From contig OX424561.1 of assembly GCA_949152475.1 (NCBI GenBank), positions 4,154,001-4,218,000 on the forward strand: DNA of 64,000 nt, written 5' to 3'. This DNA is from Terebella lapidaria. Lineage: Eukaryota; Annelida; Polychaeta; Terebellida; Terebellidae. The translations under genes and the position numbers were made by a program. Shown here piece after piece: positions 3,101 to 57,645 of this stretch. The notes under the pieces were generated by a model. It saw only the letters and a program-made list of their open reading frames with translations, did not search any database and was not told the origin of the DNA. The stretch's first letter is position 1; each line of letters opens with the position of its first letter.

Positions 3101-6100
3101 AGTGTATTGCGTGCCAGGACCCGGTGCATACGGATCAACTTACGTGCGGTTTGTGTGCGGACCGTTCGCGGGAGGAGTGGGGGCAGGTTCTTGGAGCTGT
3201 TCTCGCACGGAGAGACAAGTTGTCCCGTCAAGTGTCTCCAGCCCCGTCCTCTTCATCTTCCGCGTCGTCGGCCAAGCGTCGCCGCCATCAGGAGAGGAAG
3301 ACTTCTGCCCTGCTGGGCAAGCTGGATCATACCCTGGTTTGCCTAGAAGCTAAGTTTTCTTCCCCTTCCTCTTTGTTTTGTTCCGCGGGTGATCTGCTGG
3401 TGGGAGAGTCGCACTCGACCCACGGTGGCACGCCCCGGGAGTCAATTCACTGTGTATTTCATGTACCGTCAGCGGGGATCCTGTTTGCGCGTGTCACCTC
3501 CGCTGTTATCGGCGAACAGGTTCCTGCAGCTGCGCCCGCGCCTTTTCTGGCCAGTTCTCCCGCGTTTTTCGGTTCCCGGCCCTCGGGGTCCGGTCCAGGG
3601 GCTTTGTGTGGCCCGTCGTAGCGGTGCTCTGGTTAGTGTGATGGCGCGGAGTCCGGACCCCGTACGGGGTCCGGACCCCGACCCTTCGGGTATTCTGCGC
3701 TTGGCACAGCCTCAGTCGCAGAGGCCGGCCCCCGTGCTTCGGGGGCCGGGCCCCGTGTCACGGGGGCCGGGCTCCGTCCGACGGGGCCCGGACCCCGTGC
3801 CACGGGGTCCGGGCCCCGGGGTGCGGATCCGGCACTCGACTCTCAGTGCTGTTTCTGCCCTGCCGTTGCCCGCTCGGGGCTCGGCCCCCGTCCTACGGGG
3901 TCCGAGCCTTGAGTGCATGCTGTTGACAGCTGCTTCTATAGAGAATTCTACCGCTTCTTTCTCTTTGCAGAGTTCATCGGCGTTGACTGCCTCTTCGGCC
4001 TCTCTCACCGTGACGACTAGCTCGGCGGCCCAGCCTTCCTTGCCAGGTCCTTCTTCGGTGGTCTCTCGGCCCCCCTCTCCGTCTGGAGTTCCCCCAGCGG
4101 CCCCAGCGATGGATGTGGCTAGCCTTGTTACGGCTGTTTTGGCAGCTCTGGACGCCCGCGCGGGTGTGTCCCTTCCCCCCACGTCAGATGCCTTACGGCG
4201 TACTCAGGCCTTGGAGCCTCCCCAGCAGTTGCCTGCGGAGATCTTCGGGGAGGAGTCTGATGAGGACTCTGGGGAGGAGTCGCTTGCGTGCGGGCCTACT
4301 CCTTCGGCGCCACTGGCTCCAGTTTCCAGGAAGCGCCCAGCCTCCGTCGTGGCTTCCGTGGCTCCCAGCGACAAGCGCTCACGTCTTGACGCCGAGCCGG
4401 CCGACAGTGAGGAGGGAGAGGAGGACCTTTCCTTTGATCACAAGCTCGACCTCGTGCGTTCGACCTTGGAGCCCACCCTCTTTCCAGCTGAGCCGAAGCC
4501 CACAGTGTCTAAGCGTCCGACGTCGCTGCTGGCATCCCAGCGGTCCCCGGAATGTCAGCCTCGACGGGGTCTCCCTATCCCGGACGGGCTCCGCGAGGAG
4601 TTTTCCCGGCGCCGCTCTGAGACACTGGACCAGGGGAAAACAGAGTTGGGGAAGTTTCCCCGTCGGCCTCCTTTCCACAAGAAGGACTACCTCCCGTCCA
4701 ACCCGGACTACCTGGATAAGCCAGCGGTATTCCCCGAGCCGCCACCTGTGTGTCCTCCCTGGAGGACTGGTTCCGTACTGCGGCTTACCGCCAACTACAG
4801 TCTGCCTTGACAGCGCTGGAAGACCTGGAATCCCCACCGTCTCAGCTAGTGTCCCTGGGGGACCACCTCCGTTCGGCGTCCCAACTCCTGGAGTCTTGTG
4901 ACTTGGCGTCAGCCCACCGGATGGAGCAGTCCACGTACGTGGAGTGGGTCCTCCACTTACTGAGGAGAGACGATTTTCTAGGCCAAGCTAGGTTCAAGCT
5001 TCCCCCGGCCTTGGTGACGGAGCTCCGCTGTGCCCCGCTCGTAGATCCAGAGGCAGCGGCTGCTCTTACCTCTCCTCCACCTCTCTTCGCCGGCCTAGAG
5101 TCTAAGCTGCCTGCAGCTCGTGAGCTGGCCCGTCAGGAGGAGTCGGTCTCGACCAGTAAGCGTCTCACGGAGACGATCGCCAAGCGTCTGGCCTCCCCTC
5201 TTCAGGCGTACGCCCCCTCTTCCTCCAAACCTCCACCGACCAAGTCCAAGGAGAAGAAGGAGAAGAAGCCCTTTCAGAGGGCCCCTGCCGGCAGTAAAGT
5301 GACCAAGAAGTCGAAGCAGAAGGGCAAGCCCAAGCCAGCAGGGGAGAAGAAGTCCTCCGCCCCCGCAGCAGGTGAGTACTTCACAGAATCAGCTCCCTGC
5401 GATGGACCCTGCGATACCTCGGGCTGTCCCACCCTCGCTCCAAAATTCAAGCGAGCCTGTGGGCGCCCGTCTAACAAATTATTGGCAAGAGTGGCAGACA
5501 CTCGGAGCCAGCCCGTGGATCGTGTCGGTCCTTCGCAGGGGCTTTCGCATCCAGTTCAGTCAGCGTCCTGCACTGGCTACCGAGCCTATTCCCTTTTCAC
5601 TTCCCGGAGCTCACGCCAAACGGTTAGCACTCTCGCTCGAGATCGCCGATATGCTGGCCAAAAACGCGCTCGAAAAAGTAGGAATTTCCTCTCCAGGTTA
5701 CTACAGTATCCTGTTCTTGACTCCCAAGAGCTCAGGCGGGTGGCGCCCCGTGATCGACCTATCCGCTCTAAACCGCCATGTCAAGACCCCCAAGTTCGCC
5801 ATGGAGACGGCGGAATCGATCCGCTTGTCCCTTCCAAAGAACTCTTGGGTCGTCTCCCTGGATCTGAAGGACGCGTTCTTTCACATCCCGATTCATCCGG
5901 TCTCCCGCGAATATCTGCGCTTCGTGCACCGGGGCACCGTGTATCAGTTCCGTGCCCTGCCATTCGGACTGTCCCCGGCTCCATGGATCTTCACAATGGT
6001 GGTGAAAGAGTTACAGATACTCGCCCACAAGGAGGGCATCCTCCTCTACCAGTACCTAGACGACTGGATTGTCTATCACCAGTCTCCCGAGGTTCTGACT

Positions 6101-9100
6101 CGGCACTTACAGTGGGTCCTGGACTTGTGCAAACGCATGGGTTTGCTGGTCAATCTCCAGAAATCAGAGCTAACGCCGGCCCAGGACTTCGTGTTTGTCG
6201 GGTACCAGTACAAGACACAGCTGGGTATGGTTTTTCCCACCTAGGAGCGGCTGTCAAAGATACGGTCCTTACTCCGCAGATTCTTGGACGAGCCCAGTCA
6301 GTCAGCACAGATCTGGCAGTCGATGCTCGGGTTGCTGGCAGCAACCGAGAAGTTAGTTCCTTACGGTCGACTCCACATGCGGGAGTTACAGATCGACCTT
6401 CGCTCCCAGTGGATCGCAGCCACGGATTGCCCTCAGCAACCGGTCGTCCTTTCTCCAGCAGGGAAGGCGTCCATACTGTGGTGGATGTCCGCTACCAACC
6501 TCACTCGGGGCTCACCCTTCCGTCAGCCTCCTCCCTCCAAGCATCTATTTACGGATGCCTCTACGGAGGGCTGGGGGGCACACCTGGACTTCAAGGAAGT
6601 GTCTGGGGTGTGGACAGAGCCCGAGAGCTCATGGCACATCAACCGCTTAGAGTTGGAGGCGGTTTCCCTGGCCCTGGCCCACTGGGAGGAGGAGTGTGCT
6701 GGTCGTGCTGTCCTGGTGTCCACGGACAACTCCACTGTCGTGGCCTACATAAACAAACAGGGGGGTACAAAGTCCGTTACCCTGTGTCGGCAGGCCACGA
6801 CGCTTCTTCTGTGGTGCCGGTCTCGGAACATTCACTTGCGTGCACGTCACATCCCGGGCCGGTTGAATGTGTTGGCGGACCAGCTGTCACGCAGGGGGCA
6901 GATCCAGCCAACAGAGTGGTCTCTCCATCCTCAGGTGTTCAGTTCCCTGTGCCTCAGGTGGGACCGCCCTACAGTGGATCTCTTCGCGACCAGGTGGAAC
7001 AACAAGCTTCCAGTGTTTGTCTCTCCGCTTCCGGACCCCCTTGCGATGTCCATCGACGCGTTGTCCACGGATTGGGACGGCCTGTTCGGGTATGCATACC
7101 CTCCGGCGATTCTGCTGCCCAAGGTTTTGGCCAAGATCAGGTCCCACACATGCCGTATTCTCTTGGTCGCTCCATACCAGCCACAGCGGCCTTGGTTCCC
7201 AGAACTTCTGGGCCTGTTGGTAGATCAACCAGTGGCCCTACCCCCTCGGGACGACCTTCTCAAACAGCCCCGGGCGCAGCTGTTTCACAGCCGACCCGCG
7301 AGCCTGAACCTCCACGCGTGGCTTCTGTCCAGCGATCCCTTCGCGCAAAGGGATTTTCTTCAGAAGTGTCCAGTAGGATCGCCCGCCCTAATAGAAACTC
7401 ATCCTTGGGAGTCTATGAGTCTAAATGGCGAGTCTTCGCTGCTTGGTGCGATGGCAGGCAGGTTGATCCATTCAACGCCTCTGCTCAGACAGTAGCTGAT
7501 TTTCTCTTGGAGAAATTCCAAGCGGGTGCGGCCCCTTCGACATTAGCGGGTTATAGGACCGCTCTAGCCAAGACTATTTTGCCTCACACTGGCATCAATC
7601 TCGGCGAGGATCAAGATCTGAGCGCCTTGCTCAATAACTTTAAAGTTGAACGTCCGCTTACCCGTAACTCAGTTCCGGAGTGGGATCTATCCCTGGTTTT
7701 GAACCGTTTGGCGTCTGCTCCCTTTGAACCTATGTCTTCCGCCCCCCTAAAGTTCCTTACTTGGAAGACAGTCTTCCTGCTGGCTCTGGCTTCTGGACGT
7801 CGCAGGAGCGAAATCCACGCCTTGGATTTCTCAAAAGTTAGATGGCGAGAGGATGGCCTCCAGGTCTCCTTGCAGGTCATCCCTTCTTTCCTGGCGAAAA
7901 CCCAGCTGGCGTCGTCTCCCCCGCTGGCCTTCACGATTCCGGCTTTGTCGGCGTCTGTAGGTCCGAATCTCGAGGAAGACTGTCTCCTGTGCCCGTTGCG
8001 GGCTTTGCGCTTGTACCTTAAGCGGACAAAAGGTCTCCGGGCTGGCAAGCGACTGTTGTTCATTTCACATCAGTTGAAATTCCAACGGGACATACGTTCC
8101 GCTACCATCTCATCCTGGATTCAAAAATGTATCCGCACCTGTTACGATTTGGCCGAGCAGGACTCCGCCTGTTCGTTCAAGGTACGCGCCCATGATGTTC
8201 GGGCCATGGCGGCCTCTCTTGCATATATGGGACGGGTTCCACTTGATCAGGTCATGCAAGCATGTTCATGGCAATCCCATAACACCTTTACGTCTTTCTA
8301 CCTTAGAGACCTGACGTGGACAGTGAGTGAGGGCTACCACCTCGGGCCCGTGGTAGCTGCTCGGAGCGTCGTCACCCCTTGAGGATGACGTGGCCCATCT
8401 TGTACATACGTTCCTCTTGTACATATGTTGAAGTTCCGTGTTGCGAGTTCCGGTTCCGATTACCGTTAAATTGGTCTCCTATGTCAGTACGGTCGTACTC
8501 CTTAGTTCGGTATGCATTGTGACTCAGTTGCGTCAGCAAGGCATATCCTCATGTACATACGTTACGTCACTTATGACCGGAAGCCAGTCACTCGACACTC
8601 GGAGGTAAGTGGTTTTTTCTACTTACCCTATTGTTAAACCATAAATGTTTTGGTGACCCTGAGGACACCCTCCTTTGGTTCCTCCAATCATTCAGGGGAA
8701 AAGCCCACCCTGTCCCTCACTGAGGCCCTAGGGTTGAGCTTTTGGTTATGTCAGAGTTCTTTTTGGAGCACCCCGCCTCCAATCTTTATTCTGATTTTAC
8801 CCGTAATGTGTTTTGGAGGTAAGATATAGGCATATAACTGGCTGTTTTATGTTAATAAAACTAGTGTTATATACTATACTTACCTCCAAAACACATTCAG
8901 AGTGTCCACCCGGCCGGCCCCGCGTACTCCTTCTGGTTGGTTCCTAGAATCGACGAGAATGACGTCACCATCCGGTCACGTGGGTTAGTGGCTTGGACAA
9001 TTCATTGTCTAGCCCATTTTCCAAATGGGGTTCTCTCTATGGAGAACTCCTATGTCAGTAAGGCTAATAAGCCATAACCCGTAATGTGTTTTGGAGGTAA

Positions 9101-25773: not shown

Positions 25774-28700
25774 CTTCTTTTTTTTTTACTTTCCGCCGTT
25801 TTGGTTTCCGATCAATAACTCGGGAACGCCTGAATGGATCTTGTCCAAATTTACACCACTGGTCAGAAATATTACATGGAAGACCCCTATTGTTTTGGAG
25901 GCGGCTCCGGGGTCCGTGAGGTCCGTGAGGATGAAATCAAGGTTTATTTTGAGACTTGGTTTCCGATCGATAACTCAAAAAGTATTCATGCAATGGCAAA
26001 TATTCTATGCATGGGAGTTCATATACCACCAGGGAAGAACCCTATTGATTTTGGGATCAATCCGTCGAACGACCTCTGACCTAGAGCTCGGAAGAATTTT
26101 TGCTGATTCATCCTTGAGGCTTTCATGCATATCTCGGAAACGGTGCGTCGTAGAGCAAAACGGAGCTCAATTTCGGCCTCCTGGCACTAGACAAACTAGT
26201 CTAGGGGGTATCTTGGGTCGAAACGACCCCTGGTGTCGAATTTTTTTTTGCCGAGTCGGCACTTCCTGTTCGGCCGTATCTCGGAAACGGTGCGTCGTAG
26301 AGCGAAACGGAGCTCAATTTCGGCCTCCTGGCACTAGACAAAGTAGTCTAGAGGGTATCTTGGGTCGAAACGACCCCTGGTGTCGAATTTTTTTTTGCCG
26401 ACTCGGCACTTCCTGTTCGGCCGTATCTCGGAAACGGTGCGTCGTAGAGCGAAACGGAGCTCAATTTCGGCCTCCTGGCACTAGACAACTAGTCTAGGGG
26501 GTATTTTGGGTCGAGACGACCCCTGGTGTCGAATTTATTTTTTCGCCGACTCGGCACTTCCTGTTCGACCGTATCTCGGAAACGGTGCGTCGTAGAGCGA
26601 AACGGAGCTCAATTTCGGCCTCCTGGCACTAGACAACTAGTCTAGGGGGTATTTTGGGTCGAGACGACCCCCGGTGTCGAATTTATTTTTTCGCCGACTC
26701 GGCACTTCCTGTTCGACCGTATCTCGGAAACGGTGCGTCGTAGAGCGAAACGGAGCTCAATTCCGGACTTCTGGCACTAGACAAACTAGTCTAGTGGGTA
26801 TTATGGGTCGAGACGACCCCTGGTGTCGAATTTATTTTCGCCGACTCGGCACTTCCTGTTCGACCGTATCTCGGAGACGGTGCGTCGTAGAGCGAAACGG
26901 AGCTCAATTCCGGCCTTCTGGCACTAGACAAACTAGTCTAGTGGGTATTTTGGGTCGAGACGACACCTGGTGTCAATTTTTTTTTCGCCGAGTCGGAACT
27001 TCCTGGTTGGCCGTATCTCGGAAACGGTGCGTCGTAGAGCGAAACGGAGCTCAATTCCGGCCTTCTGGTACTAGACAAACAAGTCTAGGGGGTATTTTGG
27101 GTTGAGACGACCCCTGGTGTCGAATTTATTTTCGCCGACTCGGCACTTCCTGTTGGGCCGTATCTCGGAAAGGGTGCGTCGTAGAGCGAAACGGAGCTCA
27201 ATTCCGGCCTTCTGGCACTAGACAAACTAGTCTAGTGGGTATTTTGGGTCGAGACGACCCCTGGTGTCGAATTTATTTTCGCCGACTCGGCACTTCCTGT
27301 TCGACCGTATCTCGGAAACGGTGCGTCGTAGAGCGAAACGGAGCTCAATTCCGACTTCTGGCACTAGACAAACTAGTCTAGTGGGTATTATGGGTCGAGA
27401 CGACCCCTGGTGTCGAATTTATTTTCGCCGACTCGTCACTTCCTGTTCGACCGTATCTCGGAAACGGTGCGTCGTAGAGCGAAACGGAACTCAATTACGG
27501 CCTCCTGGCACTAGACAACTAGTCTAGGGGGTATTTCGGGTCGAGACGACCCCTGGTGTCGAATTTATTTTCGCCGACTCGGCACTTCCTGTTCGACCGT
27601 ATCTCGGAAACGGTGCGTCATAGAGCGAAACAGAGCTCAATTCCGGACTTCTGGCACTAGACAAACTAGTCTAGTGGGTATTATGGGTCGAGACGACCCC
27701 TGGTGTCGAATTTATTTTTGCCGACTTGGCACTTCCTGTTCGACCGTATCTCGGAAACGGTGCGTCGTAGAGCGAAACGGAGCTCAATTCCGGACTTCTG
27801 GCACTAGACAAACTAGTCTAGTGGGTATTATGGGTCAAGACGACACCTGGTGTCGAATTTATTTTCGCCGACTCGGCACTTCCTGTTCGACCGTATCTCG
27901 GAGACGGTGCGTCGTAGAGCGAAACGGAGCTCAATTCCGGCCTTCTGGCACTAGACAAACTAGTCTAGTGGGTATTTTGGGCCGAGACGACACCTGGTGT
28001 CAATTTTTTTTTCGCCGACTCGGAACTTCCTGTTTGGCAGTATCTCGGAAACGGTGCGTCGTAGAGCGAAACGGAGCTCAATTCCGGCCTTCTGGCACTA
28101 GACAAACAAGTCTAGGGGGTATTTTGGGTCGAGACGACCCCTGGTTTCGAATTTATTTCCGCCGACTCACCACTTCCTGTTGGGCCGTATCTCGGAAACG
28201 GTGCGTCGTAGAGCGAAACGGAGCTCAATTCCGGCCTTCTGGCACTAGACAAACTAGTCTAGTGGGTATTTTGGGTCGAGACGACACCTGGTGTCAATTT
28301 TTTTTCGCCGACTCATAACTTCCTGTTCGGCCGTATCTCGGAAACGGTGCGTCGTAGAGCGAAACGGAGCTCAATTTCGGGCTGCTGGCACTAGACAAAC
28401 TAGTCTAGAGGGTATCTTGGGTCAAGACGACTTCTGGTGTGGAATTTTTTTTCACCGACTCAGCACTTCCTGTTTGCCGTATCTCGGAAACGGTGCGTCG
28501 TAGAGCGAAACGCAAAGATGCCTTAGGGTGGGGTATGTCACTTAAACTTTGACCACGGACAGTTTCAGAGTCATCATGGTTCTAGACACGGTCTCTTAGG
28601 TATATGTTAGCTAGGAATAGAACTCACACGAAATGCCCCAAGGCATCTTCAGGCCTTGACGTCTAGTTAATATTAGAAGTGATTAATCACTTGTCATATT

Positions 28701-31700
28701 TCCAAAAGTGTGAATTGTGAATACACATATTCCCCATTCAAGCTCTCCTTAAAACAATCTAGGATAATGCTCTAGGATAGTGCAAGTTTAATACAATTTC
28801 ATGTATACATACAATTTTATTGAGATATCCCTATCTATCTACTCACTTACAGGAGTACATGTGGCACAGAAAGCACACTTACATCCGATTGGACGGATCA
28901 TCCAAGATCTCAGATCGTCGGGACATGGTCGCAGACTTCCAGAGTCGTTCCGACATCTTTGTCTTCTTGCTCAGCACACGCGCTGGAGGCCTCGGGATAA
29001 ACCTGACTGCTGCGGACACGGTAGGTACCGGTAGTCAGTATGTTGGATCTGGAGATAAAGTTGACTGCGGCAGACACGGTAGTTAGTCAGTATGTAAGAT
29101 CTGGAGATAAAGTTGACTGCGACAGACATGGTAGGTAGTCAGTATGTCGGATCTGGAGATAAAGTTGACTGCGGCAGACACGGTAGGTAGTCAGTATGTC
29201 AGATCTGGAGATAAAGTTAACTGCGGCAGACACGGTGGGTAGTCAGTATGTCGGATCTGGAGATAAAGTTGACTGCGGCAGACATGGTGGGTAGTCAGTA
29301 TGTCAGATCTGGAGACAAAGTTGACTGCGGCCGACACGGTAGGTAGTCAGTATGTCGGATCTGGGGATGAACCTTACTGCGGCAGACACGGGGGTGATCA
29401 GTATGCAGGGTATAGGTATAAATTTGCCAGCTAAAGTGCATGTACAATATAGCCATTCCGAGTAAAAAAAAGAAAATTGTATGACCAATCGTCTTCTCTC
29501 TAAATCCTGCAGGTGATATTTTACGACAGCGACTGGAACCCGACAGTTGACCAGCAGGCGATGGACCGCGCTCACCGCCTGGGCCAGACCAAGCAGGTGA
29601 CGGTGTACCGGCTGATTTGTAAGGGCTCCATCGAGGAGAGGATCTTACAGCGCGCCCGCGAGAAAAGCGAGGTTTGTGTTGTCAGGGGAGTGCTGGCTGG
29701 ATTACCCTGGTCATCTGCTACTTATACAGTAGATACATGTAATAATGCATAAACTCTGGTGTATTTGGTGCCAGTATATCTCAAAATTTATCAAGTAATT
29801 GGAAGAAATTGCAAACAGGATTGTCATCTGGCATACTTGTATTGTATTTAGCGGGGCATTAACATTTCCAAAAACACTTCTTAGAGATACTACAGTTCAG
29901 AAGTGTTTATGCATAGTGGACCATTAAAAATTCAATGACTATTGAAAAAACTAAGCCACAAATTTGTCGATTAGGACATTTACTCACCACTTAACAACAA
30001 TGTGTACTTAATAAATTATTTGCGTTTCGATTGAAACAGTAATGCAAAATTGGTAACTTGATAAGCTAATCTGTCTTGAAGGTCATTGTTAATGCCAAAC
30101 TTATTCTCCCTGAAATGTTCAACATCTATAATATTATAATTCTGGCTAATACAAGGAGCTATCACAGCAGATTTGCAATTGGTCTCATTTGTTGAGTGGA
30201 GTGTCCTTGTAGTGACAAGTGCGTGTGGGGTTTCTGGGCTCTAAACCCCGGCGAGCGCACGCCACATGGATGCTGTCGGAATTATTTCAAGAAGATAAAT
30301 TTGAAAGGGCCCTGTTTCTGTCCAATCTGTGCTTATGTGCATGTGCCGTTTGTGAGCTTGCTTCGTGGCTCAGCATGTACAGACTTCTCGGCAATTAATC
30401 GGACAATGCTGTGTTGTTGTTCATCGGGACATATGTCGGGTGCTATATCGCATAAAGTGATGGAATGTCTGCTTCTTAACGAAACCCGTGGATTGCTCTT
30501 TATAAAGTGTATAAGCCACTTAGCACAGTTCTGTACATGTCCTACAGAGTATGTGCGATTGTCTCAACGGGATGTCCTGGAAAATTTTCACCTGGAATGC
30601 CGAGAGAACACATTCACACCAGCCAAAGACTTTATGTCATGGTAGTGTGATGCCCGGTCTCTAGCTGTACAAACCCCTGGACGCGGTGGGGCCGGGCTGA
30701 CCCAGCGACAGCCTGGCGTGCTGGCAGCACATATGGCGACTAGCCACTCGTCCTTGTGTGAGGAGGGGCAAGGTTGATTCGAGAGGCGAGTCTCCTGTCC
30801 GCGTGGTGCGGTCTGAGAGGGTCGATCGTCATGGCATCAGGGCTTTGATCTGTCCCTATCGTGGTTCATCATGGTTGTGTGAATGTCACCCGTCTGACAA
30901 CATCAACGTAACACGCCATAACCACCCCGATCAAACATAGCAAGTGTCAATATGTTTGCCCACACGACGACGGTCCGTAGGGCCCCATTGGTCATTGATG
31001 GAGAGATGAGCCGATTTAATTATTGGTCACTTGCCTCGTCCACACCCAAGCAACCTTGTGTCACCGCACATCAAAGTGACCGTCCACAATGGCTGCGTAA
31101 CCTTACACCACAGTCCACATGGGCAGTGTAACAGAGGCACGCGCTCTCACAAAGTGGACAATTGGTTACTGACAAGTTGTTTGCCACTTCAAGGTACCAC
31201 AAGTATCCTCCTAAGTCATCAATATCTCAGTGTACATGCTGTCAAATATCCAACTGCTGCACAGACTTTCTTAATGAGCTGTAGACATCGTCTTCCAACT
31301 TTCAAAAATAAAAAAATTATAAATAGTATACCCGTATAAGTTGGCAGTGAAAAGTGCACATATATCATGTACATGTATCATGTATGTAGTGCATGTGCAT
31401 ATTGCATTGCAAGTTTTTCAAGTGTTCTCAATGAGATTTCACAAATCACCTGTCAGAAACAAAATCTGAATTCCAACTTCAACATTGTTGTGAATGTTCT
31501 TGGATTCCATATGTGATCAATTCCACTGGGAACAGACTCGACAGTTTGTTCATCAACTGAGTGACTCTCTTGTTGCGCAATACTCAGACTTCTAGACTAC
31601 ATTTCCATCAGTGAGATATGCTGAAGGTTTGTCTGTGGACGCTGGAGCTTCTGTCTTGGTCATGAACTGGTACTTACGTGCAGCCAACATGGCTGATAAC

Positions 31701-48000: not shown

Positions 48001-51000
48001 GTATGGTTTCAAGTTTCTACTCTGGACTTTACCTGATCAACACCGTTCTAGGTGATCATCACCAGGATGATATCTGGGCCATTATACTTGCATCCATGTC
48101 TCCCTCACTGATTGCAAGTTTCTAATTGCTAATTAGCGGGAAAACCTTATTGGCAACTGTGTGTCTGAACAGGTCTCCTATCCAAGCCTGAAATTAATTA
48201 GTTTTTGAAGCGATCAGAGTTGACACAGTGAGCTAGATCTCTTGATTGTTTGACCAGTCACCATAGAAACTTTGACTTTTTATCCTCATCTTACCTGATT
48301 GGAATTTGGTCAGCAGATCAGTGCATTTGGGTGCAATATTAACTCTCCATGCTCATTGCCTGAGACAACGGGGCTGTCTATGGACAAACTAAAATCTACT
48401 TCTGAATCAGACTCATTAAATTCGTGCAACTGCAAAGAAAAATTTTTCTTCACCTAAATTGAAGAAAGTTTGCTCAATGGTTACAATGACATGCACTGTT
48501 GTTAACATGTATGGCCAGTTACCTGTCACCTGACACTAGTACACCTGAAGGCCAGCGTTGTCCACCCCCTTCTCCCTGATCAGTACATAAGCTCAAGGCC
48601 AACCATCAAAGGGCAGTCCTCCTCACTGGCCTTGACCTCTGAGGTACCTGACCACCGATATCAGGCAGTCCCAGGGACAGGGGTATCCATGGCGATCTGT
48701 TGTAACTTTGGTGATGGGGGCAGGTCGCTTGTGAGTTATTGAGCGCCGACACAAGCGCGCCTAATACAATCCTCGTTAATTAATTTGCTCCAGTGAGTAC
48801 TGACGGATGGACGGACGGACGGTCCTTTTGTGGACAGTCGATTGTGTGCGTCCGCCGACCATTAATCAGCCCTCTCTGACAGAAATATCTGATGGTCATT
48901 CCAGTGACAAAACTGGCCATAGAATTAGGGAGGAAAGATGCCAGAGAAATGACAATTAATAGGTGGAGTGTATGGTCATTTACTCAGCACCGTTTTGTCA
49001 GTGGAACCAAAGGCTGTTTATCATTAGGAACCTTTAGACGTCCTTTTACTGAACCGGGTCATGTGGTTTCAGTCTCTTGAATGATAGATGTAAAAAAGGG
49101 GTTCTGTTCCTAGTTCCTCTAACTTGTGCTGCATAGGGAGTTCACTGAAGATTTTATGTCATTGAACTGTTCTATAACCACGAAGTGTCTTGCTGTGTCA
49201 TCTATCATTGTATACCGGTACCTTGGGCAAATACCCAGGTATATTCCAGTGTAGAGGTAGATCTGTTATTCAAAGGATATGAATCCATTGAATGGGTATG
49301 ACAAACTTGCTATATCAAATGTGCCTCTATTTTGATACTTTTGTTCATGTCTCTTTCATATTTCCCGTTTTGCTCGTCGTGTTTTCATGTCATGAATTTT
49401 TCACCACAATTATACATATGTATATCTGACACAGTAGAAATCATGCAGATGTATTATTGCATGAAATGTCACGTTGATTGAGTGTCGATGGCGTAGGTGG
49501 GACCAGCAGGCTGGCACGGGTTACCCGGTGCAGTCTGACCACAGACGACAGAAAGTAGAATGGGAAAAACATGAAACCATTGGAACAAATGCCATTGTCT
49601 ATGTTGAAAAGCAGGTAAACTCGATGGTAATTGTTTCATATTCGTGGGAGGAGAAAATTCATTCTAGTTTGATTGCAATATACCATAGTCTGTTTGAGGA
49701 TCATGAATGATAACTCGAACCTCATTAACCATGTATCATTTTGCACTAAATAATGTGTTTGCAAATTTACCTCAAGTGCATATATTTGATAGATCTACAT
49801 AGATTCATATGGTAACTCTGTTTCCATGGTTACATGCTGTGTTACAAGCTGACCCTGTTTCCATGGTTACCTCAAGCTTACCCTGTTACCATGGTTACCT
49901 GCTGTGCTACAAGCTGACCCTAGCTGTTACCATGGTTACTTGCTGTGTTACAAGCTGATCATAACTGTTACCATGGTTACTTGTTGTGTTACAAGCTGAC
50001 CCTAGCTGTTACCATGCTTACTTGCTGTGTTACAAGCTGACCCTAGCTGTTACCATGGTTACTTGCTGTGTTACAAGCTGACCCTGTTACCATGGTTACT
50101 TGCTGTTTTACAAGCTGACCCTAGCTGTTACCATGGTTACTTGCTGTGTTACAAGCTGACCCTAGCTGTTACCATGGTTAATTGCTGTGTTGCAAGCTAA
50201 CCTTGTTACCATGGTTACTTGCTGTGTTACAAGCTGACCCTAGCTGTTACCATGGTTACTTGCTGTGTTACAAGCTGACCCTAGCTGTTACCATGGTTAC
50301 TTGCTGTGTTGCAAGCTAACATTGTTACCATGGTTACTTGCTGTGTTACAAGCTGACCCTAGCTGTTACCATGGTTACTTGCTGTATTACAAGCTGACCC
50401 TAGCTGTTACCATGGTTACTTGCTGTGTTGCAAGCTAACCCTGTTACCATGGTTACTTGCTGTGTTACAGTGCGTTTGAAGCAGGAGGAGAGAAGACGAC
50501 AGAAGGATGATGACCGCACGCGAGAACGAAAGCGAAAAGCCTTTGTCCCCGGAGTGGGAAAACCCGTAAGTATTGGCTAATGATTGTATCATTATACTGT
50601 ATCAGCAGCGTTTGATACAACTGAAACTGAACGTTTGTCAGCATAGTCAGGCAAAAATGAAGACTACTTTCAATGTTAGTTGTGCAGGTAAATGAGCTTC
50701 ATCTTTTTGTGCTCATTTTGAATCGTCAAAACATTGATTCTTCTTGGTAATTTCCGGTTATATTCAGATCTTACATGTATTTTCTGGTAGATTTGCATGT
50801 TCATTGCCCGTGTGGCTGCCTCTAACCCAAACCATTATACTCATTCCAGTTGATACGGTTTTGGAGCCGTGCGCTATTGTGTTACACCCACCACTTGTTG
50901 TTGTTGCGGTAGCGTGCAGGTTTCTGTAGTTAGCTTGTCATGCGGCGGCGAAGGACGCATCCTTGGACCCTGTCAGGGCCGCGTGACACGCACAGTTTTA

Positions 51001-57000: not shown

Positions 57001-57511
57001 GGAAACTTGTTTCAAACCAATAAAATCACCAGATAATTGAATTATGGTGAGCAGTAGCAGTTATCAGGTGATGAACTCCACTTCTGATCACTAGCCATTC
57101 ACAGAAGCACACCTAACCATGCACATTGCATATCTCAGTGCTTCCACATTTGTAATCCTGGTTTGTAAATCCTTTCAGTTACTTTTCATGTTCCAGCGAG
57201 TCTAGCATATGAAGAGAAGAAAATAATTTTGTGAAGTTGATGGTGCAAATAGTTCGTGAAAACCTTTGTTCACCACATTTTAATGATTTTTGTTTGATTG
57301 AACATTAAATTCTTTTCCAAGATACAATCAGTACTGAAGTAATGAAGTTTACGAAATAATTAACCTATACATGTACATGCTTCTCTCCTCAGAGAACGGA
57401 GACAGTCCGCCGTCGCTGAAAGGAAGCTTCCCCGTGGATCTCAAGCCATCACGGCGAGGTCGAGGGCGTGGCCGCGGGCGAGGGGCGGGTGGAGCCTCCA
57501 GGAAGTCCTGA
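1..57511 (+). CDS. INO80: INO80 chromatin-remodelling ATPase, C-terminal 864 residues in 19 exons (5' partial)
   Basis: This is the catalytic subunit of the nuclear INO80 complex, which uses ATP to slide nucleosomes and exchange H2A.Z (family knowledge). The joined exons are 2..116, 234..319, 578..748, 972..1071, 1204..1311, 1494..1587, 1739..1828, 1960..2254, 2467..2577, 9298..9523, 18393..18520, 28853..29020, 29513..29671, 35126..35228, 50471..50565, 53082..53222, 53462..53564, 53847..54029 and 57393..57511. All introns are GT-AG and the phases agree throughout. Residues 1-67 are the end of the first ATPase lobe ([29 protein letters not shown]). Residues about 125-465 are the family-specific insertion that binds RUVBL1/2. 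Residues 466-617 are the second lobe with motif IV ([13 protein letters not shown]), motif V ([16 protein letters not shown]) and motif VI ([13 protein letters not shown]). The tail has two AT-hooks and an RG-rich end. The HSA and DBINO parts must lie upstream of the window. The match to metazoan INO80 is from memory of the human protein and is strong in both lobes. Confidence 0.97.
234..319 (+). CDS. INO80: INO80 exon 2
   Basis: It encodes [20 protein letters not shown] and then DVENELSDK, a block near-invariant in INO80 orthologues at the end of the first lobe. The acceptor is catccag. The split AAC codon joins it to the previous exon. Confidence 0.96.
578..748 (+). CDS. INO80: INO80 exon 3
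   Basis: 57 codons, phase 0 on both sides. It includes [16 protein letters not shown] and [12 protein letters not shown], the conserved entry into the inter-lobe insertion. The acceptor is ggccag and the donor is aag/gtcaga. Confidence 0.95.
972..1071 (+). CDS. INO80: INO80 exon 4
   Basis: It encodes [19 protein letters not shown] and a less conserved continuation. [10 protein letters not shown] is a SNF2-family block at the base of the insertion. The exon ends in phase 1 at gtaagg. Confidence 0.95.
1204..1311 (+). CDS. INO80: INO80 exon 5
   Basis: Part of the inter-lobe insertion, variable among animals. It reads [20 protein letters not shown] and continues [16 protein letters not shown]. 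It was placed by the phase-1 codon from exon 4, a cag acceptor and the donor gtatgt. Sequence similarity alone would not have identified it. Confidence 0.88.
1494..1587 (+). CDS. INO80: INO80 exon 6
   Basis: It encodes [20 protein letters not shown], matching the insertion segment that in human INO80 reads close to FLRFIDISPAEMANLMLQG. It starts after ttgtag and ends in phase 2 before gtctgt. Confidence 0.93.
1739..1828 (+). CDS. INO80: INO80 exon 7
   Basis: A short basic and aromatic segment, [20 protein letters not shown] then [11 protein letters not shown]. It corresponds to the RWLALFLSLKASYRL region of the human insertion. Both ends are in phase 2, so exons 6, 7 and 8 join through split arginine codons. 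Confidence 0.9.
1960..2254 (+). CDS. INO80: INO80 exon 8
   Basis: The longest exon here. It encodes the middle of the insertion, rich in Ser, Pro, Arg and Lys in its second half (the run [15 protein letters not shown] includes several SP or TP sites). The donor is the consensus gtgagt. Conservation is low, so placement rests on the open frame, phase and splice sites. Confidence 0.88.
2467..2577 (+). CDS. INO80: INO80 exon 9
   Basis: 37 codons, phase 0. It ends [12 protein letters not shown], comparable to ELPSFLCVASP in human. The acceptor is ggacag and the donor is aag/gtacag. The DIRS element lies 100 bp after it. Confidence 0.9.
2694..2843 (+). repeat. DIRS left inverted terminal repeat
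   Basis: 150 bp beginning CTTACCTCCAAAACACATTA. By eye it is the exact reverse complement of 8952..9101. Confidence 0.95.
2935..5350 (+). pseudogene. DIRS gag-like region
   Basis: The 5' coding region of the DIRS fossil. It opens with a short cysteine-rich segment (CAQCGQQLP then CIACQD and CGLC), similar in style to the N-terminal CxxC pairs of other DIRS first ORFs. A long Pro, Arg and Ser-rich stretch over a GC-rich palindromic block follows, then an acidic Ser/Glu tract. The region is spread over more than one frame and is treated as broken. The product would be the structural protein of the element (family knowledge). Confidence 0.65.
4750..8382 (+). CDS. DIRS tyrosine recombinase frame (recombinase domain about 7380..8382)
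   Basis: A long frame of the DIRS fossil whose last 330 or so codons resemble a phage-integrase-type tyrosine recombinase. Landmarks are a SAM-like N-terminal part ([14 protein letters not shown]), the first catalytic arginine in [11 protein letters not shown], the box [14 protein letters not shown] and a final W/H/Y segment ([11 protein letters not shown]). The upstream part of the frame begins with a Lys-rich stretch that may belong to the gag-like region, then overlaps the RT/RNase H region in another frame. Overlap of this kind is typical for DIRS elements. The enzyme would integrate a circular DNA without target-site duplication (family knowledge). Confidence 0.85.
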   Translation: MSSLEDWFRTAAYRQLQSALTALEDLESPPSQLVSLGDHLRSASQLLESCDLASAHRMEQSTYVEWVLHLLRRDDFLGQARFKLPPALVTELRCAPLVDPEAAAALTSPPPLFAGLESKLPAARELARQEESVSTSKRLTETIAKRLASPLQAYAPSSSKPPPTKSKEKKEKKPFQRAPAGSKVTKKSKQKGKPKPAGEKKSSAPAAGEYFTESAPCDGPCDTSGCPTLAPKFKRACGRPSNKLLARVADTRSQPVDRVGPSQGLSHPVQSASCTGYRAYSLFTSRSSRQTVSTLARDRRYAGQKRARKSRNFLSRLLQYPVLDSQELRRVAPRDRPIRSKPPCQDPQVRHGDGGIDPLVPSKELLGRLPGSEGRVLSHPDSSGLPRISALRAPGHRVSVPCPAIRTVPGSMDLHNGGERVTDTRPQGGHPPLPVPRRLDCLSPVSRGSDSALTVGPGLVQTHGFAGQSPEIRANAGPGLRVCRVPVQDTAGYGFSHLGAAVKDTVLTPQILGRAQSVSTDLAVDARVAGSNREVSSLRSTPHAGVTDRPSLPVDRSHGLPSATGRPFSSREGVHTVVDVRYQPHSGLTLPSASSLQASIYGCLYGGLGGTPGLQGSVWGVDRARELMAHQPLRVGGGFPGPGPLGGGVCWSCCPGVHGQLHCRGLHKQTGGYKVRYPVSAGHDASSVVPVSEHSLACTSHPGPVECVGGPAVTQGADPANRVVSPSSGVQFPVPQVGPPYSGSLRDQVEQQASSVCLSASGPPCDVHRRVVHGLGRPVRVCIPSGDSAAQGFGQDQVPHMPYSLGRSIPATAALVPRTSGPVGRSTSGPTPSGRPSQTAPGAAVSQPTREPEPPRVASVQRSLRAKGFSSEVSSRIARPNRNSSLGVYESKWRVFAAWCDGRQVDPFNASAQTVADFLLEKFQAGAAPSTLAGYRTALAKTILPHTGINLGEDQDLSALLNNFKVERPLTRNSVPEWDLSLVLNRLASAPFEPMSSAPLKFLTWKTVFLLALASGRRRSEIHALDFSKVRWREDGLQVSLQVIPSFLAKTQLASSPPLAFTIPALSASVGPNLEEDCLLCPLRALRLYLKRTKGLRAGKRLLFISHQLKFQRDIRSATISSWIQKCIRTCYDLAEQDSACSFKVRAHDVRAMAASLAYMGRVPLDQVMQACSWQSHNTFTSFYLRDLTWTVSEGYHLGPVVAARSVVTP
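5372..7495 (+). pseudogene. DIRS reverse transcriptase and RNase H region
   Basis: The RT domain is recognised by [41 protein letters not shown] and the catalytic YLDD box, between about 5600 and 6230. The RNase H domain lies between about 6530 and 6900 and shows [14 protein letters not shown], the conserved NRLELEAV glutamate segment, [10 protein letters not shown] and [15 protein letters not shown]. These are signatures of DIRS polymerases. The region is treated as a fossil with about one break. Confidence 0.85.
8800..8897 (+). repeat. DIRS internal complementary region
   Basis: Bases 8800..8839 are the reverse complement of the left terminus 2678..2717. Bases 8840..8897 are the reverse complement of the right terminus 9083..9140. 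The two matches meet with no gap. In DIRS-1 models this region templates the joining of the ends into a circle (family knowledge). Confidence 0.93.
8952..9101 (-). repeat. DIRS right inverted terminal repeat
   Basis: 150 bp, the exact reverse complement of 2694..2843 by eye. A further 39 bp of right-end-specific sequence follow before the terminus at 9140. Confidence 0.95.
9298..9523 (+). CDS. INO80: INO80 exon 10
   Basis: It encodes the end of the inter-lobe insertion: [20 protein letters not shown], comparable to human LDSYCNDRSAEYERRVLKEG, then [20 protein letters not shown]. The acceptor ttgtcag at 9297 is the only nearby AG that keeps frame with exon 9; those at 9269 and 9283 do not. 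It ends in phase 1 before gtcagt. Confidence 0.93.
9524..13074 (+). other. Intron 10, 5' part: no gene seen
   Basis: AT-rich intronic sequence. It holds two close CTCF-like motifs near 9722..9779 and a 21-base G run at 11218..11238. I see no exon, RNA gene or bounded mobile element. Confidence 0.6.
9722..9779 (+). promoter_or_regulatory. Pair of CTCF-like motifs
   Basis: CACTAGGTGGCAGT at 9722..9735 and CACTAGGTGGCAGC at 9766..9779 both fit the CTCF core CANNAGRNGGCRSY with no mismatch. A third, imperfect relative lies at 9692. Function is inferred from the motif only. Confidence 0.4.
13162..13530 (+). repeat. 168-bp tandem repeat, two copies plus a partial third
   Basis: Units begin cttgtgaacgc at 13162, 13330 and 13498, exactly 168 bp apart. 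The first two units are nearly identical and the third decays after about 30 bp. Bivalve pearl elements have core repeats of similar length (about 160 bp). Confidence 0.85.
13768..16030 (+). repeat. 132-bp satellite array (interrupted)
   Basis: About nine units beginning gaataagttaaca (13768, 13900, 14032 and so on). Each contains agttaagtctattattgacc, and a few carry an extra internal 29-bp duplication. The array is split by the insertion at 14638..15600 and resumes on the far side in register. Confidence 0.85.
14638..15600 (+). mobile_element. Nested hairpin-ended element inside the 132-bp array
   Basis: It starts AGCTTACCGG with the stem CGGCCC-TTT-GGGCCG and a (GTCCGTC)n tract. It ends with the inverted CCGGTAAGCT (about 15569) and the hairpin AGCACC-CTT-GGTGCT. 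Sister units of the array show the empty site, so both borders are known to within a run of T. Its body (ataatgggagctgt, a strand-biased T-rich middle) is related to the element at 42530..44409. The end position is uncertain by about two bases. Confidence 0.7.
16034..16640 (+). repeat. About 120-bp satellite array, five units
   Basis: Units contain ggtcaacttttactttgaat, then a variable part, then catcttgaaatgcag, repeating every 118-123 bp. It adjoins the 132-bp array but is a different sequence. Confidence 0.8.
16906..18392 (+). other. Intron 10, 3' part: no gene seen
   Basis: Ordinary intronic sequence. The only pattern noted is three TGACCTTG octamers between 17033 and 17068. The 3' end has a normal pyrimidine-rich tract before the exon 11 acceptor (ctcgccccacag). 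Confidence 0.6.
18393..18520 (+). CDS. INO80: INO80 exon 11
   Basis: Start of the second ATPase lobe. It encodes [20 protein letters not shown] and then [17 protein letters not shown], helicase motif IV of SNF2 proteins. Phase 1 in, phase 0 out at gtaacg. Confidence 0.97.
18521..25700 (+). other. Intron 11, 5' part: no gene seen
   Basis: About 7.2 kb of intron. It contains a 22-base G run (22951..22972), a strong CTCF-type motif at 22004 and a 175-codon open frame on the minus strand (19404..19931) that I do not recognise. No bounded mobile element was identified. Confidence 0.55.
22004..22017 (+). promoter_or_regulatory. CTCF-like motif
   Basis: CACCAGGGGGCGCT fits the classic CTCF core exactly. 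It sits in a short GC-richer patch of intron 11. Binding is inferred only. Confidence 0.45.
25701..28666 (+). mobile_element. Helitron/HINE-like element with 147-bp satellite core (intron 11)
   Basis: The 5' end is a perfect hairpin, GGGCATTTCGG-C-CCGAAATGCCC (25702..25724), followed by a T tract. The 3' end repeats CGAAATGCCC in inverted position (28629..28638), then the stem CAAGGC/GCCTTG (28639..28658), then CTAG at 28663..28666 before TT. The centre is a long satellite array. The layout (subterminal inverted repeat, core tandem repeats, 3' hairpin, CTAG) matches pearl/HINE-type derivatives of Helitron-like elements (inference from architecture). No transposase coding is present. Confidence 0.65.
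26131..28510 (+). repeat. 147-bp satellite array, 17 boxes
   Basis: The box atctcggaaacggtgcgtcg (small variants) starts at 26131, 26278, 26425, 26573, 26721, 26868, 27015, 27162, 27309, 27455, 27601, 27748, 27895, 28042, 28189, 28335 and 28481, a spacing of 146-148 bp. Each unit also carries short palindromes such as GGGTCGAGACGACCC and ACTAGTCTAG. Units 26721..27308 recur as units 27748..28334, all four 1,027 bp apart, which indicates a higher-order repeat of seven monomers. Confidence 0.95.
28853..29020 (+). CDS. INO80: INO80 exon 12
   Basis: 56 codons, phase 0. It encodes [20 protein letters not shown] and [18 protein letters not shown], helicase motif V, which contacts DNA and couples to ATP hydrolysis (family knowledge). 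The donor is cacg/gtaggt. Confidence 0.98.
29041..29403 (+). repeat. 52-bp minisatellite copying the exon 12 donor boundary
   Basis: Seven units of 52 bp fill most of the 492-bp intron 12. Each unit contains ctggagataaagttgactgc and then ggcagacacg/gtaggt, resembling the last 34 bases of exon 12 plus its donor. In the exon's frame the unit reads [10 protein letters not shown], against [10 protein letters not shown] in the exon. Units 1-6 keep a GT at the donor position and unit 7 has lost it. Confidence 0.9.
29513..29671 (+). CDS. INO80: INO80 exon 13
   Basis: 53 codons, phase 0. It encodes [20 protein letters not shown] and [18 protein letters not shown], helicase motif VI with its arginine finger region. 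The donor gag/gtttgt is weaker than its neighbours. Confidence 0.98.
29672..35125 (+). other. Intron 13: no gene seen
   Basis: 5.45 kb with no bounded mobile element or RNA gene that I can define. It contains a 149-codon cysteine-rich open frame (30196..30645), which is about what chance allows, and a small cysteine-rich frame at 34132..34377. Confidence 0.55.
34132..34377 (+). other. Small cysteine-rich open frame, doubtful
   Basis: An 81-codon frame on the host strand. Its N terminus is hydrophobic ([15 protein letters not shown]), like a signal peptide. It is followed by eight cysteines including [16 protein letters not shown] and WCDC. I recognise no family. No promoter, splice partner or poly(A) signal is evident, so it may be chance. 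Confidence 0.15.
35126..35228 (+). CDS. INO80: INO80 exon 14
   Basis: It encodes [20 protein letters not shown] and [14 protein letters not shown]. This post-lobe segment is very close to human [20 protein letters not shown]. It ends in phase 1 with aagt/gtaagt. Confidence 0.97.
35229..39084 (+). other. Intron 14, first part: no gene seen
   Basis: Intronic sequence with a canonical G-quadruplex motif at 36148..36164, a C run at 38849..38863 and an (AGT)n microsatellite at 39001..39048. No exon or bounded element was found. Confidence 0.55.
39001..39048 (+). repeat. (AGT)16 microsatellite
   Basis: An uninterrupted AGT triplet run of about 48 bp, just upstream of the palindromic-ended element. 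Confidence 0.97.
39085..39781 (+). mobile_element. 697-bp element with palindromic 39-bp terminal inverted repeats
   Basis: The left TIR (39085..39123) and right TIR (39743..39781) are reverse complements with one mismatch. Each TIR is itself largely a palindrome built from GGATGCACTAAC and GTTAGTGCATCC arms, so each end can fold alone. The interior has three copies of cgttagggaatctt (39500..39570) and no convincing coding. No clear target-site duplication was seen. The superfamily is not assigned. Confidence 0.75.
39782..42529 (+). other. Intron 14, second part: no gene seen
   Basis: Nothing coding or bounded was identified. It includes a few near-CTCF motifs (for example around 40369 and 41650) that each miss one or two consensus positions. 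Confidence 0.5.
42530..44409 (+). mobile_element. Hairpin-ended non-autonomous element with internal 455-bp duplication
   Basis: It begins AGGTTACCGGACC with the stem GGACC-TTT-GGTCC and a (GTCC)n tract. It ends with the inverted TCCGGTAACCT (44376..44386) and the hairpin TTAGCC/GGCTAA. The middle holds two consecutive 455-bp copies (ctgatcagttttgag at 43165 and 43620). Each copy contains the cluster TGACCTTGAATTTGACCTTG. It has the same architecture as 14638..15600 and shares sequence with it. A minus-strand relative lies at 58851..60611. Confidence 0.65.
44410..49814 (+). other. Intron 14, third part: no gene seen
   Basis: About 5.4 kb of intron without a recognisable gene or bounded element. 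It contains a perfect X-box (46315..46328) and a patch at 47360..47560 dense in regulatory-type motifs (ccaat, ttacgtcacg). Confidence 0.5.
46315..46328 (+). promoter_or_regulatory. X-box (RFX-type) motif
   Basis: GTTGTCATGGTAAC fits the X-box consensus GTHNYYATRRNAAC at every position. Function is inferred. Confidence 0.35.
49815..50470 (+). repeat. X-box minisatellite abutting exon 15
   Basis: About 17 units of roughly 38-42 bp built on gttaccatggttac followed by ttgctgtgttacaagctgac. Thirteen units have the exact 14-mer, whose reverse complement GTAACCATGGTAAC fits the RFX X-box consensus. The last four positions of each kind show a three-monomer higher-order unit of 119 bp (short units near 50086, 50205, 50324 and 50443). 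The array stops exactly at the exon 15 acceptor, which is part of its last unit. Confidence 0.93.
50471..50565 (+). CDS. INO80: INO80 exon 15
   Basis: A highly charged segment after the ATPase core, [20 protein letters not shown] and then [12 protein letters not shown]. It matches human LRLRQEEKRQQEETNRVKER in place and character, but is shorter than the human linker. Its acceptor tgtgttacag is the truncated end of a minisatellite unit. Confidence 0.95.
50566..53081 (+). other. Intron 15: no gene seen
   Basis: 2.5 kb with a second perfect X-box match (GTAACCATGGTAAC at 51666..51679), a 15-base C run (52211..52225) and G-rich stretches at 51690..51780. No exon or bounded element was found. 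Confidence 0.55.
51666..51679 (+). promoter_or_regulatory. X-box (RFX-type) motif
   Basis: GTAACCATGGTAAC is a perfect consensus match. It is the exact complement of the minisatellite core 1.2 kb upstream, so it may be an escaped unit or an ancestral site. Confidence 0.35.
53082..53222 (+). CDS. INO80: INO80 exon 16 (AT-hook 1)
   Basis: 47 codons, phase 0. It begins [20 protein letters not shown], with a canonical AT-hook core (GRP flanked by basic residues) that binds the minor groove of AT-rich DNA (family knowledge). An acidic and Ser-rich stretch, [17 protein letters not shown], follows. The tail is poorly conserved between phyla. Confidence 0.93.
53462..53564 (+). CDS. INO80: INO80 exon 17
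   Basis: It contains [20 protein letters not shown], aligning with human PLDESSSDMLVIVDDPASS. This short acidic block is the best conserved part of the tail. Phase 0 in, phase 1 out. Confidence 0.95.
53847..54029 (+). CDS. INO80: INO80 exon 18 (AT-hook 2)
   Basis: GC-rich exon encoding [15 protein letters not shown], a double AT-hook-like run, then an Ala-rich helix ([20 protein letters not shown]) comparable to human SAAAYAAYGYN. Both ends are in phase 1. Confidence 0.95.
54030..57392 (+). other. Intron 18: no gene seen
   Basis: 3.4 kb. It contains a strong G-quadruplex motif on the transcribed sense strand (55474..55495) and a weak tRNA-like segment near 56761..56825. No exon was found. 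Confidence 0.55.
56761..56825 (+). other. Possible tRNA-derived SINE remnant, weak
   Basis: tgtagtggtcagttcc resembles a pol III A-box region, and gggtcaaac about 40 bp later resembles a degenerate B-box. No tRNA cloverleaf or poly-A tail is convincing. Confidence 0.15.
57393..57511 (+). CDS. INO80: INO80 exon 19 (terminal coding exon)
   Basis: It encodes [20 protein letters not shown] and a C-terminal RG-rich tail ([14 protein letters not shown]) ending ASRKS and TGA at 57509..57511. RG-rich tails are common arginine-methylation and nucleic-acid-binding segments (general knowledge). The last codons lie in the first unit of a 59-bp tandem repeat. Confidence 0.95.
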
Positions 57512-57645
57512 TAGACGTCGTCAGGATGGGATCAGGGATGAGGGGGGCCGGCAGAGCCAGGGAGTCCTGATAGATGTCGTCAGGATGGGATCAGGGATGA
57601 GGGGGGCATGCAGAGCCAGGGAGTCCTGATAGATGGCATCATGTA
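57490..57645 (+). repeat. 59-bp tandem repeat spanning the INO80 stop codon
   Basis: agtcctgatag recurs at 57504, 57563 and 57622. Units share gtcaggatgggatcagggat and gaggggggc. The first unit contains the last codons and the stop. Confidence 0.9.

Follow-up and report, generated by a model that had tools for sequence, protein, structure and literature searches.

Minisatellite-like tandem duplications of exon-intron boundaries have been described in lancelets under the name of "mirage" minisatellites. In the excerpts of the papers on which we draw here and below, they are reported from Adh3 and the globin genes BflGb6 and BflGb9 (PMC3087553) and from troponin C, with similar imperfect repeats in PGBD5 (PMC3902484). 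The arrays show concerted evolution from which the boundary units are left out (PMC3087553), and RT-PCR suggests regular splicing that is reportedly undisturbed by them (PMC3087553; PMC3902484). The closest case of a repeated donor is the VNTR in intron 18 of human ABCA7, a 25-bp array whose first two bases are the GT of the exon's donor (PMC5954066). Alleles of 315 to 9711 bp are on record, and their effects on splicing were measured: An isoform that retains one VNTR unit, by use of the donor one unit on, amounts to 2 ± 1% and carries a frameshift and a premature stop; transcripts with premature stops rise on cycloheximide; and array length leaves the retained-unit isoform unaffected and raises skipping of exon 19 (PMC5954066). 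Elsewhere, human genes in segmental duplications hold internal tandem repeats (mean, 30 bp × 4) that alter gene structure (PMC2812944), and a tandem duplication across a boundary led to intron gain in a potato RdRp gene (PMC4974935). Within the open-licence literature, we found mirages with minisatellites in lancelets alone, from which we derive no claim of priority, and a single annelid case of minisatellites with splice sites, the earthworm metallothionein genes; the excerpted text does not present the intronic arrays of these genes as copies of a junction (PMC12783039).

Here, we describe a 52-bp tandem array at an exon-intron junction of INO80, which encodes a chromatin remodeller, in Terebella. 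The window (the whole 64,000-nt stretch of DNA that was analysed) lies within this gene, which reaches upstream of it, as SNF2 matches are found from C7:4152733 onward. The exon pair that flanks the array and the true donor are the following.

28853..29020, + strand: INO80 exon, placed by homology and frame; its last 30 nt (28991-29020) match the repeat unit.
29021..29022, + strand: true splice donor GT (ACG/GTAGGT), with a U1 energy of -10.4 kcal/mol.
29513..29671, + strand: next INO80 exon, placed by homology, with a translation ending REKSE and the acceptor AG at 29511-29512.

When translated, the two exons match PDB chain 9ge5_G, which bears the name INO80 and is presumably human, over 109 residues (E = 1.7e-63) and without a gap across the junction, so that both the donor at 29021 and the start of the next exon at 29513, which is preceded by TCCTGCAG, are well placed. 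The authentic INO80 junction, spanned by this ungapped match, is intact beside the array. The intron that follows 29020 measures 492 nt, 376 nt of which are taken up by the 52-bp array.

29030..29405, + strand: 52-bp minisatellite of 7.2 copies (Tandem Repeats Finder, TRF: 89% matches, score 591).
29361..29390, + strand: exon-derived part of copy 7, with its 10-residue peptide kept and its donor lost (GG at 29391).

An earlier note on this DNA had placed the array at 29041-29403 and derived its unit from the INO80 exon end and donor. The array is indeed present, with limits that need correction, since TRF starts it at 29030 and the homology to the exon begins at about 28991. As for the derivation, all seven copies hold, in register, 30 nt that match the exon end, a donor position, and about 18 nt of intron start, and the repeat unit crosses the exon-intron boundary in 7/7 copies; the real junction has 6 extra nt 3' of the donor relative to the array units. 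The exon end (28991-29020) is identical to copy 7 at 25 of 30 nt and to copies 1-6 at 22 to 24 of 30 nt. The alignment to the exon scores 35 for copy 7 and 30 for the unit consensus; in 2000 mononucleotide shuffles of the exon for each, neither score was attained (maxima, 25 and 26, respectively). When the consensus was run against the window after masking of 29051-29412, its best place was the exon-donor junction (28996-29050), with a score of 58, an alignment that takes in 21 nt already assigned to the array by TRF, versus 26 at the next place.

The resemblance could be fortuitous, the array being an ordinary intronic minisatellite that happens to look like an exon end, and the exonic part of the consensus alone gives this reading some room, as it scores 30 at the exon versus 26 elsewhere in the window. 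We consider it scarcely credible, given the shuffles and the masked scan, the better separation of copy 7 (35 versus 23 elsewhere), and the continuation of the match between consensus and exon through the donor into the intron. The codons of copy 7 point the same way. Read in the frame of the exon, this copy retains coding sense, and 5/5 of its differences fall on third codon positions, for which the chance is 0.0018 in a post hoc test that places changes at random over the 30 sites; because changes on the exon's own lineage would be mostly silent, the fair chance is higher, and we reckon it nearer 0.03. As copy 7 thus keeps the coding sense of the exon with third-position differences only, the coding end is very likely where the unit originated, and the origin proposed in the earlier note stands.

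The same note had counted a GT in six of the seven copies and had called these sites decoys of the true donor. The count is confirmed, with GG in copy 7, and the sites are as follows, together with the first stop that they would bring into frame.

29079..29080, + strand: decoy donor 1, ACG/GTAGTT, weak (-5.0 kcal/mol).
29131..29132, + strand: decoy donor 2, ATG/GTAGGT (-10.4 kcal/mol).
29183..29184, + strand: decoy donor 3, ACG/GTAGGT, the 9-mer of the true donor (-10.6 kcal/mol).
29235..29236, + strand: decoy donor 4, ACG/GTGGGT (-10.2 kcal/mol).
29287..29288, + strand: decoy donor 5, ATG/GTGGGT (-10.0 kcal/mol).
29339..29340, + strand: decoy donor 6, ACG/GTAGGT, the 9-mer of the true donor (-10.6 kcal/mol).
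29084..29086, + strand: first in-frame stop (TAG) if decoys 2-6 are used.

Pairing energies were computed against what we take to be the 5' end of U1. Among the 58 GT dinucleotides of the exon and intron, the six that rank highest are the true donor and decoys 2-6, and the next best reaches -6.4 kcal/mol. Decoys 2-6 hence equal the true donor in predicted U1 pairing, while decoy 1 is weaker, and one 9-mer, ACGGTAGGT, is common to the true donor, decoy 3, and decoy 6. The term decoy, understood as a competing donor, therefore describes a potential, which U1 pairing bears out for decoys 2-6 and does not bear out for decoy 1. Use of any of the six GT decoys would give a premature stop, as the note had held, by two routes: Decoys 2-6 include the TAG at 29084-29086, in line with its statement that the first repeat supplies the stop, whereas decoy 1 lies upstream of this TAG and would instead add 58 nt, shift the frame, and lead to a stop in the next exon at 29548-29550. 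Transcripts with such premature stops are expected to undergo NMD.

A cluster of this kind might also act unspliced, as an intronic element that recruits U1 and thereby helps the true donor to be recognised or keeps polyadenylation from occurring too early. Counting the true donor, there are six sites of -10.0 to -10.6 kcal/mol within 318 nt, with weak decoy 1 among them; they are well separated from the other GT sites, which would suit such a role. An intron of just 492 nt has little evident need for help, though, and the units are without a purifying signal (see below), so that we hold this role to be very improbable.

Alternatively, the decoys might form a switch. Their use would then be substantial and perhaps regulated, and the resulting premature stops would, by way of NMD, reduce the yield of productive INO80 mRNA to a degree that depends on the number of copies. 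The equality of decoys 2-6 with the true donor would fit a switch, as would their stronger pairing than that of a further six apparent donors of INO80 within the window (-6.4 to -8.0, a partial list picked by eye from the frames) and the premature stop that follows from every GT decoy. Precedents cut both ways: ABCA7 does use the donor one unit on, and its array length does alter splicing, via exon 19 skipping, but the retained-unit isoform stays at its low level irrespective of array length (PMC5954066), and the lancelet mirages are reported to be harmless to splicing (PMC3087553; PMC3902484).

The divergence among the units adds to the case against a switch. Of the 52 sites, 2-5 differ between any two of copies 1-6, and 19-23 between these copies and copy 7, the latter partly owing to a one-base shift after the donor position of copy 7. 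Judged by sequence, this looks like the edge pattern of tandem turnover, with homogenised inner units and copy 7 excluded at the edge. Within copies 1-6, the diversity of the donor 9-mer was 0.156, compared to 0.049 for the exon-derived and 0.058 for the intron-derived part, and a permutation test for lower donor diversity gave P = 0.95, with little power for six near-identical copies. With copy 7 included, the values were 0.233, 0.093, and 0.247, respectively (P = 0.87). Selection on the decoys is thus unsupported, as in the small sample of copies 1-6 the donor 9-mer varies more than either other part. Splicing of the units themselves as internal introns was set aside on sequence, as the distance from GT to AG would be <52 nt and a pyrimidine tract is lacking.

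Folding predictions bear on the choice of donor with mixed results. Around the true donor, base pairing is possible between the end of the exon and the beginning of the intron, yet the predicted fold there was unexceptional both as RNA (z = -1.23; 25/200 shuffles as good) and as DNA (z = -1.11; 30/200), as was that of the whole exon and intron (z = -1.63; 2/20). Predicted openness of the whole donor 9-mer was 0.003-0.021 at all sites and did not separate the true donor from the decoys. For the GU alone, the predicted unpaired probability was 0.67 at the true donor, 0.68 at decoy 2, and 0.08-0.37 at decoys 1 and 3-6, and openness at the corresponding position of the lost site in copy 7 was 0.75. 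In these models, structure might favour the true donor over most decoys, decoy 2 excepted, which speaks against a switch at five of the six sites. Taken together with the lack of extra conservation at the decoy donors, we regard the switch as unlikely.

The rarity of such an array was gauged within the same genome. A search of the 761.6-Mb assembly, with the best candidates scored, gave one match, the array itself; a single array in one assembly has no bearing on length instability. As a control, we used matches to PF00271 and PF00176, keeping the best 30 for each family (out of 151 and 65 matches). Of the 60 loci around them, 9 were dropped as lying on short contigs; among the 51 on chromosome-size contigs, several overlap, and two (L045 and L063) are upstream exons of INO80 itself. 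An array was counted if it had a period of at least 12 and at least three copies and lay no farther from a match end than ~80 nt on the outer or 20 nt on the inner side, a rough criterion, as match ends are not exact exon ends. By this measure, 0/51 control loci had an array of at least three copies at a match edge; two-copy arrays occurred at L031 and L055, both in non-coding sequence as judged by eye. Because arrays cover 11% of the window versus 2.4% of the control sample, some overlap between arrays and junctions is expected by chance in a stretch so rich in repeats, and the control speaks for the rarity of the arrangement, not for a special mechanism in INO80.

The window contains two further arrays at INO80 exons.

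49845..50469, + strand: second INO80 array (TRF rows 49845-49900, 28 bp, and 49883-50469, 41 bp × 14.7).
50471..50565, + strand: exon with its acceptor in the last unit of the second array, with INO80 assignment and bounds by eye.
57498..57635, + strand: third array, 59 bp × 2.3, whose unit holds the end of the apparent last INO80 coding exon.

The second array (49845-50470) is the counterpart, at an acceptor, of the 52-bp donor array. TRF also calls its row 49883-50469 as 119 bp × 4.9, and it extends up to the 3' splice site (AG 50469-50470), with its last unit as the source of the branch-point-like CTAAC, the tract, and the AG before exon 50471. In total, it has 14 branch-point-like CTRAC motifs, each with an AG 24-37 nt on, compared to a mean of 1.1 and a maximum of 5 in 500 mononucleotide shuffles; since the units derive from one another, the 14 count as a single motif that was multiplied rather than as separate occurrences. 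The 13 upstream CTRAC modules end in AAG and the real acceptor in CAG. The homology stops short of the exon, so that this may be an ordinary array that has grown up to the junction. In the third array, the unit contains the apparent INO80 stop codon (TGA 57509-57511). One could imagine that donor ladder and branch point/acceptor ladder, both tuned by copy number, jointly set productive INO80 mRNA, with minisatellite length as a heritable and possibly somatic dial, but we consider this a far-fetched proposal.

Other repeats of the window include a 147-bp satellite of 16.2 copies (26130-28512) in the long intron just before exon 28853-29020, and an array of 147-bp period is also present in control locus L017. 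At 2905-8379, between INO80 exons, long overlapping frames resemble by eye a DIRS-type retroelement, with reverse-transcriptase-like and tyrosine-recombinase-like frames.

The assembly also holds sequences of other kinds. One contig of 15,973 bp (C438) carries, on one strand and with frames named by eye, cox1-cox2-cox3-nad6-cob-atp6-nad5 and a second run of nad4L-nad4, a gap with room for rRNAs, and nad1-nad3-nad2; the two runs join if the contig is circular, and the order is presumably that of annelid mitochondria. ARAGORN, run with the bacterial code, found no tRNA on it. On many short contigs (for example, C150, C235, C255, and C363), kinase, AAA, TCP1, and myosin matches are broken by TAA or TAG and seldom by TGA (7 TAG, 15 TAA, and 0 TGA in the myosin match of C150), which perhaps reflects the nuclear code of a ciliate in or on the animal. 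At C417:44633-46450, on a 61-kb contig, COX1 is matched a second time; this match is split into two pieces, contains TGA, and may belong to the mitochondrial genome of another organism.

Returning to the donor array, its homology to the exon end, its register, the intact true junction, and five decoys equal to that junction in predicted U1 pairing are direct observations. We think it highly probable that the array is a junction-spanning "mirage" minisatellite, with mostly correct splicing and rare use of the decoys. A segment of ~52-58 bp, reaching from the exon's terminal 30 nt into the beginning of the intron, would have been duplicated in tandem and would have grown to seven units by slippage or unequal exchange, after which the inner six units were presumably homogenised while the outermost copy 7 drifted. 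Most transcripts would use the true donor, a low rate of decoy use would yield transcripts with premature stops that are degraded by NMD, and the array, having no selected function, would vary in length between individuals. Of the splicing outcomes considered, rare decoy use with otherwise correct splicing is the most likely. Classical work on equal donors favours the one nearest the acceptor, which would favour the decoys and so argues against this explanation. Skipping of the next exon with array length, as in ABCA7, could likewise be the larger effect, and the lancelet and human precedents need not transfer to Terebella.

The locus amounts to a natural experiment in splice-site choice, with six donors near-equal in predicted U1 strength, one weak donor among them, and an identical 9-mer at the first, fourth, and seventh donors of the series. 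Near-exclusive use of the true donor would mean that the choice is made not by U1 pairing but by exon context, structure, or order; use of the decoys would let the number of repeats contribute to variation in expression. The array at the INO80 acceptor provides a complementary test.

Compared to the known systems, the INO80 array shares with the lancelet mirages, as far as the excerpts go, the minisatellite-like tandem duplication of an exon-intron boundary, splice signals in many units, and inner units that are homogenised while boundary units are not; in both, 5' and 3' boundaries are affected, and many mirage units keep AG/GT. It extends this pattern to a distantly related animal and to a gene of deep conservation. 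Differences from the mirages are that five of its units are on a par with the true donor for predicted U1 pairing and that one gene combines a donor array with an array at an acceptor. With ABCA7, it has in common a tandem array directly 3' of an exon, a unit with the exon's donor, and donors at unit spacing, whereas the ABCA7 unit of 25 bp starts at the donor and the INO80 unit of 52 bp includes 30 nt that match the exon, so that the INO80 array would work like the ABCA7 VNTR and yet differs from it. Some minisatellites of the human segmental-duplication genes also lie at exon-intron boundaries, although these genes are recent paralogues with novel introns and INO80 keeps its original junction (PMC2812944). 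In the potato RdRp gene, as in INO80, a boundary-crossing tandem duplication supplies splice signals, but there it made a new intron, whereas none is indicated in INO80. Introns from tandem arrays were reportedly the subject of Zhuo et al. in 2007. The array described here is of a known kind, represented in lancelets and, in a similar form, in one human gene, and is a new case in the INO80 gene of an annelid.
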